DNA of 64,000 bases from Olsenella profusa F0195 (GTDB lineage: Bacteria; Actinomycetota; Coriobacteriia; Coriobacteriales; Atopobiaceae): contig NZ_AWEZ01000045.1 in NCBI RefSeq assembly GCF_000468755.1, positions 1 to 64,000 on the forward strand, written 5' to 3'. Each line of letters opens with the position of its first letter. Within the stretch, counting starts at the first letter, position 1. The notes beneath the pieces are model-generated. The model was not told where the DNA came from and made no database searches. It saw only the letters and a program-made list of their open reading frames with translations. This document shows, piece after piece, positions 6,982-55,497 of this stretch. The position numbers and the translations under genes were made by a program.

Positions 6982-7152
6982 TACAATCAGCTCAAGCGAT
7001 AGAGGTGCGGAACGGATGACGCATGGGCGAGCCGGCGGGCAGGGACCCCACGCAAAGGCCAAGCCGCCGAATCGCCCTGCCGGGTACGGTGGGGCGGTGG
7101 GTCCGCGGGGAACACCCACGGGACTGTCTGCAGGGAACTCTGCGGTTGAGCT
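6982..7152 (+). promoter_or_regulatory. Lysine riboswitch with upstream -10
   Basis: The L-box pattern is clear: AGAGGTGCG at 7001-7009, AGCCGCCGAA near 7069, TGGGT near 7099, and CGGGACTGT near 7127 before the closing strand. The outer helix is perfect, AGCTCAA (6989-6995) pairing with TTGAGCT (7146-7152). A -10-like TACAAT lies at 6982-6987, just ahead. After the aptamer the sequence CGCGTCCGGCGGGTGC leads to the GGGGAG ribosome site of lysA. No U-tract terminator is evident, so control is probably translational. It would lower lysA-dapA-dapB-dapH expression when lysine is plentiful. Confidence 0.88.
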
Positions 7153-7204
7153 ATCCCCGCGTCCGGCGGGTGCTTGAGCGCAGCGAGGACGATGGGGAGC
7201 AAGC

Positions 7205-8569: not shown

Positions 8570-9466
8570 ATGGAAATGACCAAGCTCACGGGATCGATCG
8601 TGGCCCTCGTCACGCCCTTCAAGGAGGATCGCTCCGTCGACTTCGATGCCCTGGGGCGTCTGGTGGACTTCCACCTGGAGAACGGCACGGATGGCATCCT
8701 CGTGCTGGGCACCACGGGCGAGTCCAGCACCATGACCGACAGGGAGGACCTCGACGTCGCTCGCCTCGTGGTCGAGCGCGTGGCGGGACGCATCCCCGTG
8801 ATCGGTGGCTCGGGCTCCAATTCCACCGACGAGTCGCTGCGCAAGAGCCTGGGCCTGCAGAAGCTGGGTGTGGACGGCCTGCTGCTCATCACGCCGTACT
8901 ACAACAAGAGCAACGAGGACGGCATCTATCACCACTTCAAGACCGTGCTCGATGCCGTCAACGTGCCTTGCATCCTGTACAACATCCCTGGGCGCACGGG
9001 CTGCTCCATCAGCGAGCGCAACTTGGCGCGCCTGTCCGCGCACCCCAACGCCTGGGGTCTCAAGGAGGCGTCGGGCAGCATCGCCTATGCCACGATGGCG
9101 GCGCGGTACGTGAGCGACGACTTCCGCATGTTCAGCGGCAACGATGACATGGTCGTGCCCATCCTGTCCCTGGGCGGCTCGGGCGTCATCTCCGTGTGGG
9201 CCGACGTTGCCCCTGCCACGGTGCATGAGCTGGTCGCACGGTGGCAGGCGGGCGATGCCGCAGGTGCGCTCAGGATCCAGCTGGACAACTTGGAGCTCAT
9301 CCATGCGCTCTTCTGCGAGGTCAACCCCATCCCCGCGAAGGCCGCACTGGCCAGGATGGGCCTCATCACGGAAAGCTATCGACAGCCGCTGTGGCCCCTG
9401 GCCGACGCGAGCCGCGAGCGTCTCTACGCTGCGCTCGCCGACCGTGGCCTCATTGCGGCGGAATAG
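8570..9466 (+). CDS. dapA: 4-hydroxy-tetrahydrodipicolinate synthase
   Basis: A 298-residue TIM-barrel aldolase that condenses pyruvate with aspartate-semialdehyde, the first committed step to DAP and lysine. GTTGES (47-52) binds the pyruvate carboxylate, Tyr137 lies in YNIPGRTG, and Lys165 in GLKEASG forms the Schiff base. AAGGAGG precedes the ATG by six bases. Its semialdehyde substrate is made by lysC and asd at 48-50 kb in the same window. Only 12 bases separate it from dapB, consistent with one transcript. Confidence 0.95.
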   Translation: MEMTKLTGSIVALVTPFKEDRSVDFDALGRLVDFHLENGTDGILVLGTTGESSTMTDREDLDVARLVVERVAGRIPVIGGSGSNSTDESLRKSLGLQKLGVDGLLLITPYYNKSNEDGIYHHFKTVLDAVNVPCILYNIPGRTGCSISERNLARLSAHPNAWGLKEASGSIAYATMAARYVSDDFRMFSGNDDMVVPILSLGGSGVISVWADVAPATVHELVARWQAGDAAGALRIQLDNLELIHALFCEVNPIPAKAALARMGLITESYRQPLWPLADASRERLYAALADRGLIAAE

Positions 9467-14066: not shown

Positions 14067-14169
14067 ATCCACTCCTTAGTGGTGCGGGGGGGGGTGCGCA
14101 TGTGAGCCGTGTGCGTCGCTTTTCCAACGACATCGTAGCACGGTGTGCGGCGGCCGGTCGCATGTGCCT

Positions 14170-14269
14170 CGTGTGGGTGCCCTTCTCCCAAGGCAGGTTT
14201 TGCGACCTGCGGATGCGTCGGCTCCCCTCGGGAGAAAGGCACCCACACGAATCGATCGGCACCCACACG
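14170..14269. repeat. Nested palindrome in the gap between two minus-strand genes
   Basis: The 20 bases at 14170-14189 (CGTGTGGGTGCCC..) are the reverse complement of 14230-14249 with one mismatch. Inside lies a second hairpin, GCAGGT-tttgcg-ACCTGC. The outer arm sequence GGCACCCACACG occurs again at 14258-14269, just outside. The 300-base gap upstream of the Crp-like gene holds nothing else I can name. It could be a structured leader, a small RNA or a palindromic repeat element. Confidence 0.6.
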
Positions 14270-30087: not shown

Positions 30088-30450
30088 ATGGCACGTGTCA
30101 AGCGCGCAGTTGCCGGTCGTAAGAAGCGTCAGACCCTGGTCCAGCGCACCAAGGGATACTACGGCACCTCCTCCCGCACCTTCCGGGGCATGAAGGAGCA
30201 GTCCCAGCACTCCGGTCAGTATGCCTACCGCGACCGTCGCAACAAGAAGCGCGACATCCGCGGCCTGTGGATTCAGCGCATCAACGCCGCCGCCCGCATC
30301 AACGGCCTGTCCTATAGCACGTTCATGCACGGTCTGAGGCTTGCCGGCGTCGAGCTCGATCGCAAGGTGCTTGCCCAGCTCGCCTTCGAGGGCGACCCCG
30401 CGTTTGCCGATCTCGCCGAGATTGCCAGGAAGGCCCTCGACGCCGAGTAG
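30088..30450 (+). CDS. rplT: Ribosomal protein bL20
   Basis: A 120-residue basic protein needed for early assembly of the large subunit and, in other bacteria, a repressor of this operon. The start ARVKRAVAGRKKRQTLVQRT and YRDRRNKKRDIRGLWIQRIN are typical. AAGGAG lies before the ATG. The operon ends at a strong terminator 24 bases after the stop. Confidence 0.97.
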   Translation: MARVKRAVAGRKKRQTLVQRTKGYYGTSSRTFRGMKEQSQHSGQYAYRDRRNKKRDIRGLWIQRINAAARINGLSYSTFMHGLRLAGVELDRKVLAQLAFEGDPAFADLAEIARKALDAE

Positions 30451-30474
30451 GCTCACGCACAGCGTGCCCCGTCT

Positions 30475-30501
30475 GCACCGCCCCGTGGGGCGGTGCTTTT
30501 T
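30475..30501 (+). terminator. Intrinsic terminator of the infC operon
   Basis: GCACCGCCCC and GGGGCGGTGC form a ten-base arm pair with a tight GT turn, followed directly by TTTTT. Confidence 0.92.
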
Positions 30502-30565
30502 CGGGGTCCTCAGCCCTGTGTCGCGCTCCTGCACGGCGGGGCTGATGCACCCATTCCGCGGTCAC

Positions 30566-30751
30566 GGGAGCGATTCGGCCCCAAGTGCGCGCTGCCCCTC
30601 TCGTCTCCGTGGCCGCGGGGGGCCTATTCGCCGCCGGCTTCCTCACTCGACGTGCTCAAGGACGGGCGCACGGCGCGTGGCGGGCCGATTGCGCCCCCAA
30701 TTCCCCGCGGATTGGCAGGGACCAGCACGCACTTGGGGCCGAATCGCTCCC
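30566..30751. repeat. Dispersed repeat element, copy A, with perfect 24-bp terminal inverted repeats
   Basis: The 24 bases at 30566-30589 are the exact reverse complement of 30728-30751. The element is 186 bp and lies in the gap between rplT and the convergent phosphotransferase gene. A second element at 55,020-55,187 has closely similar ends (shared GGCCC..AAGTGCG core and CCAGCACGCACTTGGG inside the right end) but a diverged middle. Neither copy has a convincing open frame. It looks like a MITE-like or REP-like mobile palindrome. Confidence 0.75.
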
Positions 30752-30819
30752 AAGGGGTCGTGAGACGCCTCTGTCGAGGCTGCGGACGAGGGGGATGGGT
30801 GCGCGGCACGCCGCCTGCG

Positions 30820-32007
30820 TCACTCCCCAAGGTGATGCCCCTCGTCAAACCTCTCCTTCTGCTCCCTGAACGCGGGATCTCCGGGGCCTATGAGCTCGTC
30901 GTCCCCGGTCTTGGGGTCGCGATGGTGCAGCAGCACGGGGCTGAAGAGGTGGAGCTTCATGGCGACGATGGCGGAGATGACGAACAGGGCGACGAAGATG
31001 GCGATGCGGGGCTTGACTGTCACCTGGGTCATCACAAAGGTGCCCAGGCAGAGCAGGCCCGTCCAGGCATAGACCATGAGCACGGCCTCCCGCTGGTTGA
31101 AGCCCTCGTCTATGAGGCGGTGATGGATGTGGCCGCGATCCGCCTGGCCGATGCTCACATGGGCACGGCTGCGGCGCACGATGGCGGAGAACGTGTCGAG
31201 GATGGGGACGGCGGCTATCACGAGCGGCACGATGATGGTGGTGAGGCCTGCCACGCGCGTCACGGAGAGCAGGGAGACCGTGGCCAAGGCAAAGCCCAGG
31301 AGCAGCGACCCCGAATCCCCCAGGAAGATGGACGCCGGGTTGAAGTTGTAGAAGAGGAAGCCCAACGTGGCACCAGCGAGGGCGATGGAGAGCGCGGCGG
31401 CGTCCAGGTGCCCCCCCATCACGGACAGCAGGAACATCGTGAGGGCGGCGATGGCGGATATGCCTGAGGCCAGGCCGTCCAGACCGTCGATGAGGTTGAT
31501 GATGTTGGTGTAGGCAACCAGGTAGACGATGGTGATGGGGTAGGCGAGCCACCCGAGTACGATATCCCCTCCGGTGAGCGGGTTGATGACCACGCCGATG
31601 ACGAGTCCCCCAGCCACGGCCACGGCCGCCGCCGCCACCTGCCCCAGGAGCTTCTGCCAGGGTCTGAGGGTCAGCACGTCATCGATGGCACCGGTGAGGA
31701 AGATCACGAGGAAGCTCAGCGCGATGGCCATGTAGTTCATGCCGTTGAAGTGGGGTGCCGGCGTGAACACCGTGGGCCACTCCAGGTAGACCGTCCCTAG
31801 GTACTGGACGATGAGTGCGACGAGCAGCCCCAGGAAGACCGCGATGCCGCCCATGCGCGGGACGGTCGTCTTGTTGATGCGTCGGGCGCTGGGTCGATCG
31901 ACGGCCCCCATATGCCAGGCGATGCGCCGTGCGAGGGGCGTGGTGGCAACGGCGGTGAGAAGTGCGGCGAGGAACAGGTAGAGATGAATGGCCCATGCGC
32001 TGCTCAT
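30820..32007 (-). CDS. Undecaprenyl-phosphate GlcNAc-1-phosphate transferase (WecA/TagO/MraY family)
   Basis: A 395-residue membrane enzyme with about eleven spans that links a sugar-1-phosphate to undecaprenyl phosphate. This is the first step of wall teichoic acid-like, arabinogalactan-like or capsular polymers. Motifs: RRINKTTVPRMGG, TGAIDDVLTLRPWQKLLGQ (Asp-Asp), NIINLIDGLDGLASG (Asp), FLGDSGSLLLGF and the C-terminal His-rich DRGHIHHRLID of the WecA type, which differs from MraY. ATG 32007 begins the first span. It is divergent from rho. Polymer type cannot be told because no other polymer genes are nearby. Confidence 0.9.
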   Translation of the reverse strand: MSSAWAIHLYLFLAALLTAVATTPLARRIAWHMGAVDRPSARRINKTTVPRMGGIAVFLGLLVALIVQYLGTVYLEWPTVFTPAPHFNGMNYMAIALSFLVIFLTGAIDDVLTLRPWQKLLGQVAAAAVAVAGGLVIGVVINPLTGGDIVLGWLAYPITIVYLVAYTNIINLIDGLDGLASGISAIAALTMFLLSVMGGHLDAAALSIALAGATLGFLFYNFNPASIFLGDSGSLLLGFALATVSLLSVTRVAGLTTIIVPLVIAAVPILDTFSAIVRRSRAHVSIGQADRGHIHHRLIDEGFNQREAVLMVYAWTGLLCLGTFVMTQVTVKPRIAIFVALFVISAIVAMKLHLFSPVLLHHRDPKTGDDELIGPGDPAFREQKERFDEGHHLGE

Positions 32008-54165: not shown

Positions 54166-54951
54166 ATGGCACAGGGAACCCCTCGGAGGCGGAGCACGCA
54201 CCCACGCACCGCATCGCGCAAGCCGGCCCCCCGGCCAACGGCGCGGCGGCCATCTGGCTCTGTACAGGGGACGTCCCGTCAAAAGCCAAGGCCGACGCCA
54301 TCGAAGGCTGGCACCGCCCGCCGGCAGGCTGGCCCGGCCAAGAGGCGCACCATCGCCGCCCGTGCGCGGCGGCCTCGACAGGAGACGGCGCATCCCCGGC
54401 GCTCCGCAGGACACGGGTCGACGGATCGGGAGCGCGACGAGCGCTCCCATGACCACGCCACCCACCAGGGCTACGAAGGCTACGATGCGTATGGCGACGG
54501 TGGCTACGACTCTGATGCGTACGACGCCTATGCGGATCCTCGGGGGCGTGACTCCCTCCGTCTTGGGGAGCATCCCGTGCTCCTGCTGACCATCGTGCTC
54601 TATGCCGTGGTGTGGGTGCTCGCACTCGTACGGTTCTGGCAGCTCACGCCTGCGGGCGGGGTCCTGCGCTGGGCGCTCACGTACCTGTATGGGCTGATGA
54701 CCGTCGCTGGCTTTTCCGCATCGGCCGCCATGGGGTCCCAGCATGTGTGGGGCCCGCGGCGCTGGCTCGTGGTCCCCTTGGCCGGCCTGCTCGAGATGGT
54801 GCTGGTCCTGTTCACGCTGGCGCTCTACCACGGCGTTGACATCGAGGTGGCCACCCTGCCGCTGTACTGGTACCTGCTGCTGGGCATGTTCGTCTCGTTG
54901 CTGGGCATGCTGGGGGGCCTCCTGCTGACGCACACGCGCAGGGAGGGCTAG
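54166..54951 (+). CDS. Membrane protein with Arg/Pro-rich N-terminal domain
   Basis: A 261-residue protein not assigned to a family. The first 95 residues are extremely basic (RRRSTHPRTASRKPAPRP and similar), followed by a Tyr/Asp/Gly-rich stretch (GYEGYDAYGDGGYDSDAYDA, about 98-122). Then come four predicted spans from VLLLTIVLYAVVWVLALV to YWYLLLGMFVSLLGMLGGLLL. The N-terminus is probably cytoplasmic, disordered and able to bind nucleic acid or anionic lipid. The ribosome site before ATG 54166 is weak (GGGACGAG at a long spacing), so the exact start is uncertain. Divergent from tdk. Confidence 0.65.
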   Translation: MAQGTPRRRSTHPRTASRKPAPRPTARRPSGSVQGTSRQKPRPTPSKAGTARRQAGPAKRRTIAARARRPRQETAHPRRSAGHGSTDRERDERSHDHATHQGYEGYDAYGDGGYDSDAYDAYADPRGRDSLRLGEHPVLLLTIVLYAVVWVLALVRFWQLTPAGGVLRWALTYLYGLMTVAGFSASAAMGSQHVWGPRRWLVVPLAGLLEMVLVLFTLALYHGVDIEVATLPLYWYLLLGMFVSLLGMLGGLLLTHTRREG

Positions 54952-55497
54952 GCGCCGTCGCGCGGGGTCGCCTTGCTGCGCGGGGTGGGCCTCCCGATGG
55001 GCGTGGCGCACGGCAGTGCGCGTTTGGGGCCCAAGTGCGTGGCCCTGTGGCCTGCGGGGCGCGAGAACCGTCCGGATTTTGGACGTATGCGGGGCGATTT
55101 CCCTCCATGGAGGCCCGAACCTTGCCGCCATACGTGCTGGAAGGACGCGATGTGGCGCCACCCAGCACGCACTTGGGCCCCAAACGCTCCTGCTCGAAGG
55201 TTTCGGGCGTGGGATGGGGCGTCCCCGTCCCTCATGGGCGACACGTGGTCCGTGCCGAGCGGGTGGTGGGACGGCCGGGAGGCGCGGTCGTGGGACACTA
55301 CTGCCCACGGAACGAGGCGATGCGCTTCGCCTTATGTTGCGGTGCCGTCTCGGCTGGAACGAGACGTCGCGCTTCTGGGCGTCCTTGTCTAGAATGATCA
55401 GGGGCTCCCATTCCCGGGGTCCCGAAAGACGCCTTTCAGGGGAGGGGACGGCGATCGGGCCAGGGGCCTGCGTCGTCCCGCCCGTATCGGAGGAGAC
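54952..55497. other. Gap before gatC holding a repeat and a leader
   Basis: No protein gene is supported in these 546 bases. The first half contains the dispersed repeat copy B. The second half has a small hairpin (CGTCTCG-gctggaa-CGAGACG, 55346-55366) and a TAGAAT box near 55,390 that may be the gatCAB -10, giving a leader of about 95 nt. I looked for a T-box and did not find its conserved core. Confidence 0.5.
55020..55187. repeat. Dispersed repeat element, copy B, with perfect 20-bp terminal inverted repeats
   Basis: GCGTTTGGGGCCCAAGTGCG (55020-55039) is exactly mirrored at 55168-55187. The 168-bp element shares its ends, and the CCAGCACGCACTTGGG just inside the right end, with copy A at 30,566-30,751. 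The middles have diverged, while each copy keeps perfect arms, so the arms look selected or recently made. Confidence 0.75.

Follow-up and report, generated by a model that had tools for sequence, protein, structure and literature searches.

The window, the whole stretch of 64,000 nucleotides analysed here, carries at 30566-30751 a short element with inverted ends (element A), and the question is what kind of element this is. An earlier note, which regarded it as possibly a non-autonomous mobile element or a structured RNA, had its anatomy right. The ends, described as complementary at 24 of 24 bases, are formed by GGGAGCGATTCGGCCCCAAGTGCG, which occupies 30566-30589, and a perfect reverse complement of it whose last base is 30751; in a scan of the window for inverted repeats at most 300 bp apart, the repeat lengthens to 29 nt at 97% complementarity and is the top entry. 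The relative with similar ends announced at 55,020 is present as element B, whose arms (55020-55041 and 55166-55187) are complementary at 22/22 bases, and which is the sole other fully complementary inverted repeat among the 25 pairs listed of the 30 in the window. Element A was also rightly placed in an intergenic gap after a terminator: its two neighbours, rplT (Ribosomal_L20) and a Glycos_transf_4 gene, converge on it, the intrinsic-terminator-like site of rplT (30475-30505, + strand; hairpin at 30475-30496 and T run) comes before it, and no ORF is called within it by crude codon scoring, in line with the claim that it holds no gene.

Arm architecture, copy number and range

Each arm is made up of GG or TG, an octamer of the form NRCGNNNN, the core GGCCCCAAGTGCG, and then YGMTG-like bases. 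In element A (30567-30750, no strand; 154 bp arm to arm, that is from CAAGTGCG to CGCACTTG), the left octamer AGCGATTC (30569-30576) and the left core GGCCCCAAGTGCG (30577-30589) lie on the + strand, and the right core (30728-30740) and right octamer (30741-30748), the reverse complements of GGCCCCAAGTGCG and AGCGATTC, on the - strand. The two octamers, our proposed strand-exchange (overlap) region, match at 8/8 positions; the core, near-invariant across the family, is a proposed protein-binding half-site; and the interior at 30595-30722 (no strand, no gene called) is the invertible segment. Element B (55017-55190, no strand; 144 bp arm to arm) has on one side an ORF whose end is at 54951 and on the other gatC (55498). 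Its left octamer CGCGTTTG (55019-55026, + strand) agrees with AGCGTTTG of the right arm at 7/8 positions, and its left core GGGCCCAAGTGCG (55027-55039, + strand) is one base off the consensus, with the identical change in the right core (55168-55180, - strand). The window also holds a 25-nt inverted repeat outside the A/B family (14169-14250; 92% complementary, 32-nt loop) and a lysine riboswitch (6992-7161; Rfam RF00168, 61.3 bits).

The earlier note's proposal of a dispersed repeat stood and grew: the window's own genome (G000, from a gut-type, Olsenella-related bacterium; 2.72 Mb, 73 contigs) contains 25 loci instead of two, 22 with exact arms and three degraded ones with mismatched arms (C67:34449, C60:52692 and C44:8798). 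The pattern CCAAGTGCG-N110..140-CGCACTTGG occurs at 20 places in this genome and at 0 for a reversed control; this is no chance occurrence. Among all 65 exact CCAAGTGCG sites there are 22 close pairs, every one inward-pointing, which correspond to the 22 exact-arm elements. Ten of the 21 sites outside exact pairs were examined with about 260 bases of context; one belongs to the degraded C44 element, and around the rest nothing resembling an arm is seen. In the complete own-genome list, exact GGCCCCAAGTGCGYG occurs only inside the 25 elements.

For the statistics below we used a 24-element set, comprising the 22 exact-arm elements and two elements, L086 and L087, from a second strain of the same species (G039, one contig), and for the octamers a 25-element set that adds C67:34449 (L248). 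As judged from neighbouring genes, L086 and L087 are G039 alleles of the L048 and C44 loci, respectively, so neither is a new locus. Over both arms the elements measure about 162-196 bp (arm-to-arm length plus 15 per side). By crude codon scoring 23 of the 24 overlap no called ORF, and L060_7340 overlaps the end of one by 78 bp. Translations place elements next to rplT, gatC, secY-adk and hisS-aspS, with rplT and gatC confirmed by Pfam.

Across 140 genomes of the bacterial family, the exact pair pattern was found in five: 20 times in G000, 21 times in G039, and once each in G008, G048 and G066, where we judged it a chance match as the YG after the site is missing on at least one side. With these three set aside, the arm pair is confined to two strains of one species (2/140). 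The stricter pattern with YG had no match in genome_contigs or viral_contigs, and neither did element A in the plasmid collection or one family-1 element in the phage collection, all collections from which the records nearest G000 were possibly left out; the closest gatA-protein relatives in genome_contigs, with the same proviso, are Olsenella and other Atopobiaceae at no more than 85% identity. A one-arm pattern had one exact match in each of five viral stretches. A blast-type family search with one element gave weak, short matches in 13 further genomes, and none of the eight loci read had an arm partner at element spacing.

Arm spacing, matched octamers and interior orientation

The arm-to-arm lengths of the 24 elements are 133, 134, 144 (six elements), 145, 154 (six), 155 (seven), 165 and 166 bp, and three further elements measure 144, 132 and 154 bp, so that lengths cluster only at 132-134, 144-145, 154-155 and 165-166 bp. 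The best period is 10.6 bp (Rayleigh R 0.96 for 24 elements; 0 of 20,000 uniform-length sets reach it), and it holds for all 27 elements (R 0.95) and for 15 lineage-collapsed lengths, hand-picked from interior families (R 0.95), again with 0 of 20,000 random sets in each case. Measured between core centres, the spacing is 124-126, 136-137, 146-147 or 157-158 bp, which corresponds to 11.8-15.05 turns of 10.5 bp, or about 12, 13, 14 and 15 turns. Within family 1, homologous interiors of the 144 and 154-155 classes are set apart chiefly by a single block some ten bases long, a net ten-base indel. A length period of the double helix points to double-stranded DNA.

Comparison of the two strains bears on the same point. 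Flank alignment gave 20 of the 22 exact-arm elements a G039 partner in the same place, with the pairing done by hand, and the orthologue counts leave out L048 and L058, which the alignment did not pair as near-identical loci. Across the 20 pairs we counted 0 indels in 3,586 bp of element versus 33 in 16,000 bp of flank, and the plain reading is that selection acts on arm spacing. The missing indels lose some force, since the elements are also poorer in substitutions than their flanks (32 in the same 3,586 bp, 26 of them in 2,466 bp of interior, versus 252 in 16,000 bp). Stronger purifying selection on the arms is not demonstrable from these two strains, with 6 changes in 1,120 bp of arms versus the 26 in the interior. 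The L048 and L086 alleles share 75% identity, whereas the other 20 loci show 96-100%. In G039, L086 and L087 are 20 kb apart (L244-L245, G039:C1:2550000-2582000); the stretch separating them carries island-like genes, a tRNA-Met lies next to L087, and the corresponding L048 and C44 loci of G000 are on separate contigs.

The core is nearly invariant: across the 24 elements, columns -5 and -2 to +7 are the same in 48/48 arms, column -4 varies in one arm and column -3 in four. The octamer, by comparison, is diverse between elements (for example AGCGATTC, AGCGTTTT, AGCGAAAC, AGCGAAAG and CACGCTTA), and within an element it is matched between the arms, at 188 of 200 positions versus 123.9 expected (25 elements; 0 of 20,000 shuffled pairings reach this). 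Since octamer types are common to a family, family 1 and the remainder were tested apart, and the match persisted both in the 12 elements of family 1 (91/96 versus 79.5 expected; 0 of 20,000) and in the remaining 13 (97/104 versus 77.3; 0 of 20,000). At the five bases directly inside the core, matching between left and right arms was not significant (89/125 versus 84.7 expected, p 0.15). On the inner side, only column +10 showed a weak excess (17/24 versus 12.9, p 0.04 uncorrected), and columns +8, +11 and +12 are conserved in sequence, with no significant matching. With matching concentrated in the octamer, a defined exchange region is a better fit than gene conversion that spreads along a hairpin. 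An overlap sequence shared within a site pair is a feature of site-specific inversion, and the octamer would be that overlap.

Because homology between paralogues outlasts the arms (in most of family 1 by about 9-20 bp, in family 2 by about 20-60 bp, and in one family-1 pair by more), the orientation of an interior can be read against its flanks. Pairs were taken as informative when flank and interior orientation were both above the shuffle threshold. The 19 such pairs, which are not independent of one another, comprise 9 with the same orientation and 10 inverted, and all agree with one two-state assignment per family, with 0 contradictions. In family 1, L047, L049, L060_8928 and L248 stand against L055, L056, L059 and L060_2002; in family 2, element A of the window, L048 and L086 stand against L053 and L087, so that the interior of element A is oriented relative to its flanks as in L048/L086 and opposite to L053. 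The clearest case is L086 versus L087, where the flank gives 90.8 direct versus 22.0 and the interior 81.0 inverted versus 15.4. Blast-type matches agree: at C50:46415, C67:12464, C50:38541 and C64:93037 the left flank and arm match the query one way and the interior the other, the flank share being just about 9-11 bp at C50:38541 and C64:93037, and the two directions are likewise opposed in the family-2 elements L087, C43:179018 and C44. Both orientations between inverted sites, another feature of site-specific inversion, are thus found among paralogues. Between the strains G000 and G039 the interior is inverted in 0/20 orthologue pairs, so inversion is slow or rare.

One pair of loci has also exchanged sequence. 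The interior of L056 in G000 is 98.3% identical to L075 of G039, the orthologue of L049, and 96.2% to its own orthologue L078, a sign of recent exchange between loci. Within G000, the elements at C50:46415 (L056) and C29:32512 (L049) are 97% identical with loosely similar flanks, a likeness of the kind left by recent exchange or gene conversion.

A candidate mechanism and its rivals

The sites are inverted and set on a 10.6-bp lattice, the octamer is element-specific, and the segment occurs in both orientations relative to homologous flanks. The best explanation, in our view quite possible if somewhat short of probable, is that the paired inverted sites are brought into synapsis on one helix face by a tyrosine-type recombinase, which now and then inverts the segment between them. 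The GGCCCCAAGTGCG core of each arm would be the binding site of this enzyme, most likely a tyrosine recombinase; the intervening DNA would loop out, with both arms meeting on the same helix face; and strand exchange inside the octamer would leave the segment inverted at low frequency. Only near-whole-turn spacings would persist because so short a loop closes only with its arms in helical phase, and octamers would stay matched within an element and drift between elements because strand exchange requires homology in the overlap. Synapsis on a short loop with exchange in a homologous overlap thus predicts phase, private octamer and both orientations. The weak points of this reading are the missing enzyme, the outer half-site, which would be expected for a tyrosine recombinase and shows no conservation past the two G, and the absence of any flip when the two strains are compared. 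The recombinase mechanism by itself leaves the dispersal of 25 copies unexplained, and recombination between any perfect inverted repeats could likewise flip the segment.

The serine recombinase family had no match in G000 or G039 (E 0.001). Both strains encode two complete Xer-type tyrosine recombinases without internal stops, which in G000 score above the PRK00283 tyrosine recombinase subfamily cut-off and below the XerC and XerD equivalog cut-offs; no other intact candidate was seen in both strains, and a role for these two proteins at the elements is a guess. The strains have additional integrase genes or fragments. An integrase near L086/L048 was set aside and is not named as the recombinase because it lies in the island-like region with the tRNA-Met beside L087. 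None of the tyrosine recombinases and integrases of the two strains is tied to the arms by position.

Somewhat unlikely, we think, is a protein-bridged DNA loop of an architectural or regulatory, BIME-like kind, in which the bound arms would loop the DNA for some host function at many intergenic sites. The lattice and the zero indels, which suggest selection on arm spacing locus by locus, would suit it, as would near-invariant cores around interiors that cannot be aligned between families, and sites fixed in both strains (20/22) beside rplT, gatC, secY-adk and hisS-aspS. Such a loop predicts helical phase only; matched octamers and inverted interiors would have to be by-products of rare template switching or inverted-arm recombination, of a hairpin type. 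Chloroplasts do show small inversions between inverted repeats of 11-24 bp (PMC12928735), but template switching should also homogenise the bases adjacent to the arms, and the left-right matching inside the core is not significant. An unsystematic look at the neighbouring genes brought up no common function or promoter position.

That the copies multiplied in the past is clear, and to this extent the earlier suggestion of a non-autonomous mobile element holds. A MITE-like origin would have a cut-and-paste transposase assemble a paired-end complex on whole-turn lengths only, as for IS50 and Paramecium IESs, with insertion in two directions mimicking inversion. The elements do have terminal inverted repeats and form dispersed families with interiors 73-97% identical, relatives carry MITE-like families with different arms, and a natural 10-bp length periodicity has been described for Paramecium IESs (PMC3464196). 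Homology between copies, however, runs past the arms, so that homologous flanks travel with the element. At ten boundaries of the 24 elements, target duplications of lengths 2-10 were in no consistent excess over shuffled pairing (top z 2.4 of 90 tests). Among the matches of two flank-spanning searches over the two strains, no flank-only (empty) copy adjoining the arms was seen, and neither was a larger, autonomous element with these arms in G000, where the exact arm occurs in the 25 elements alone. The matching of octamers would also be unexpected for ordinary transposon ends, and we consider this origin unlikely.

The remaining suggestion, a structured RNA family in which a long transcribed hairpin has its stem maintained by compensatory changes, has fared worst and is very improbable. 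The arms could make a stem of 23-25 bp with covarying octamer positions, and folding of each element as RNA shows this stem; no common interior fold is visible, only the arms pair consistently, and the interiors are unrelated between families and present in both orientations. Rfam gave no match to either element of the window at the gathering threshold. The conservation of columns +8, +11 and +12 without significant matching speaks against an RNA, and a 10.6-bp period suits looping of duplex DNA, not an RNA loop.

Known systems, implications and other repeats

Helical quantisation of length is already known naturally from the IESs of Paramecium. According to PMC3464196, IES lengths track the helical repeat with a period of about 10.2 bp, which was read as loop formation between the ends, and the period, there about 10.2 and here 10.6 bp, is the common feature. 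IESs are described there as eukaryotic, 26 bp and longer, and removed by an excision in which a domesticated transposase assists, whereas the elements here are bacterial, about 162-196 bp long, bounded by matched arms of about 23-25 bp, and their DNA is retained and inverted. The same paper invokes helical-twist experiments on transposon ends, repressor sites and site-specific recombination sites, and cites the IS50/Tn5 short-transposon series and the Hin, lac and ara loop series, in which whole-turn site spacing governs activity; the Hin system is also treated in PMC3798978. Those series are laboratory constructs, and the elements here are a natural series kept by evolution. In a cursory search of the literature we found no bacterial counterpart of this length quantisation.

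Among switches, the closest likeness is to fimS of E. coli (FimB/FimE), a short invertible segment whose flanking inverted repeats are substrates of tyrosine recombinases. The fim switch repeat, given as TTGGGGCCA in PMC8777976, has eight bases, TTGGGGCC, in common with our core read inside out, a lead that may be chance. Unlike fimS, which is one 314-bp promoter switch, the elements here are 25 intergenic copies with a different site architecture. They further differ from it in that a scan of 30300-31000, the region covered, found no promoter-like site around element A, and in that no FimB-size recombinase common to both strains was seen.

Dispersed, intergenic, palindromic repeats near core genes are familiar in bacteria as BIME/REP, NEMIS/Correia and ERIC, and the elements here share these properties. 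They differ from REP/BIME in having no Y1 transposase in the genome (PF01797, the RAYT family of REP/BIME; 0 of 2 strains at E 0.001). To our knowledge, the length lattice, the matched octamer and the inverted interiors are not features of any of these repeats. It is conceivable, though we would sooner doubt it, that the elements here make up a new kind of multi-copy bacterial switch of about two dozen dispersed, helically phased pairs of identical sites, flipped by a putative recombinase, with the octamer of each pair as an address confining recombination to its own element.

If the recombinase reading is true, a genome sequence alone would reveal pairs of DNA sites held by protein at many chromosomal places, the arm sequence would be an exact bait for the binding protein, and matched overlaps are suggested to protect the chromosome from being scrambled by the 25 recombining pairs. 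On the rival explanations too, the lattice is an in vivo record of DNA looping that can be searched for in other genomes.

Relatives carry repeats of other kinds. TIR families in other Atopobiaceae have arms unrelated to the GGCCCCAAGTGCG-core elements, and inverted-repeat scans of 400 kb each in the sister species G040 and G038 gave other repeat types only. In G040, of the same genus, these include REP-like clusters in which a 22-bp motif resembling CAGARTGCGCTTTTCCGTGAGG occurs in either orientation (L202, L203, L207, L211 and L214). Downstream of gatA, ten relatives (L115, L116, L118, L120, L121, L136, L141, L143, L144 and L158, at about 9007-9130) have hairpins of 80-104 bp with arms of 23-38 nt, mostly near-perfect, in which the position is conserved and the sequence is not. 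A separate inverted-repeat family with arms near TGCCCAAAATTTGCGGTTG-M-CGG is found in Tractidigestivibacter/Olsenella (L148 and L193-L198, in the genomes of L147, L148 and L151). All of its 16 matches are exactly 134 bp long, although gaps of 98-128 were permitted, and the M base is the same in both arms in 14 of the 16.
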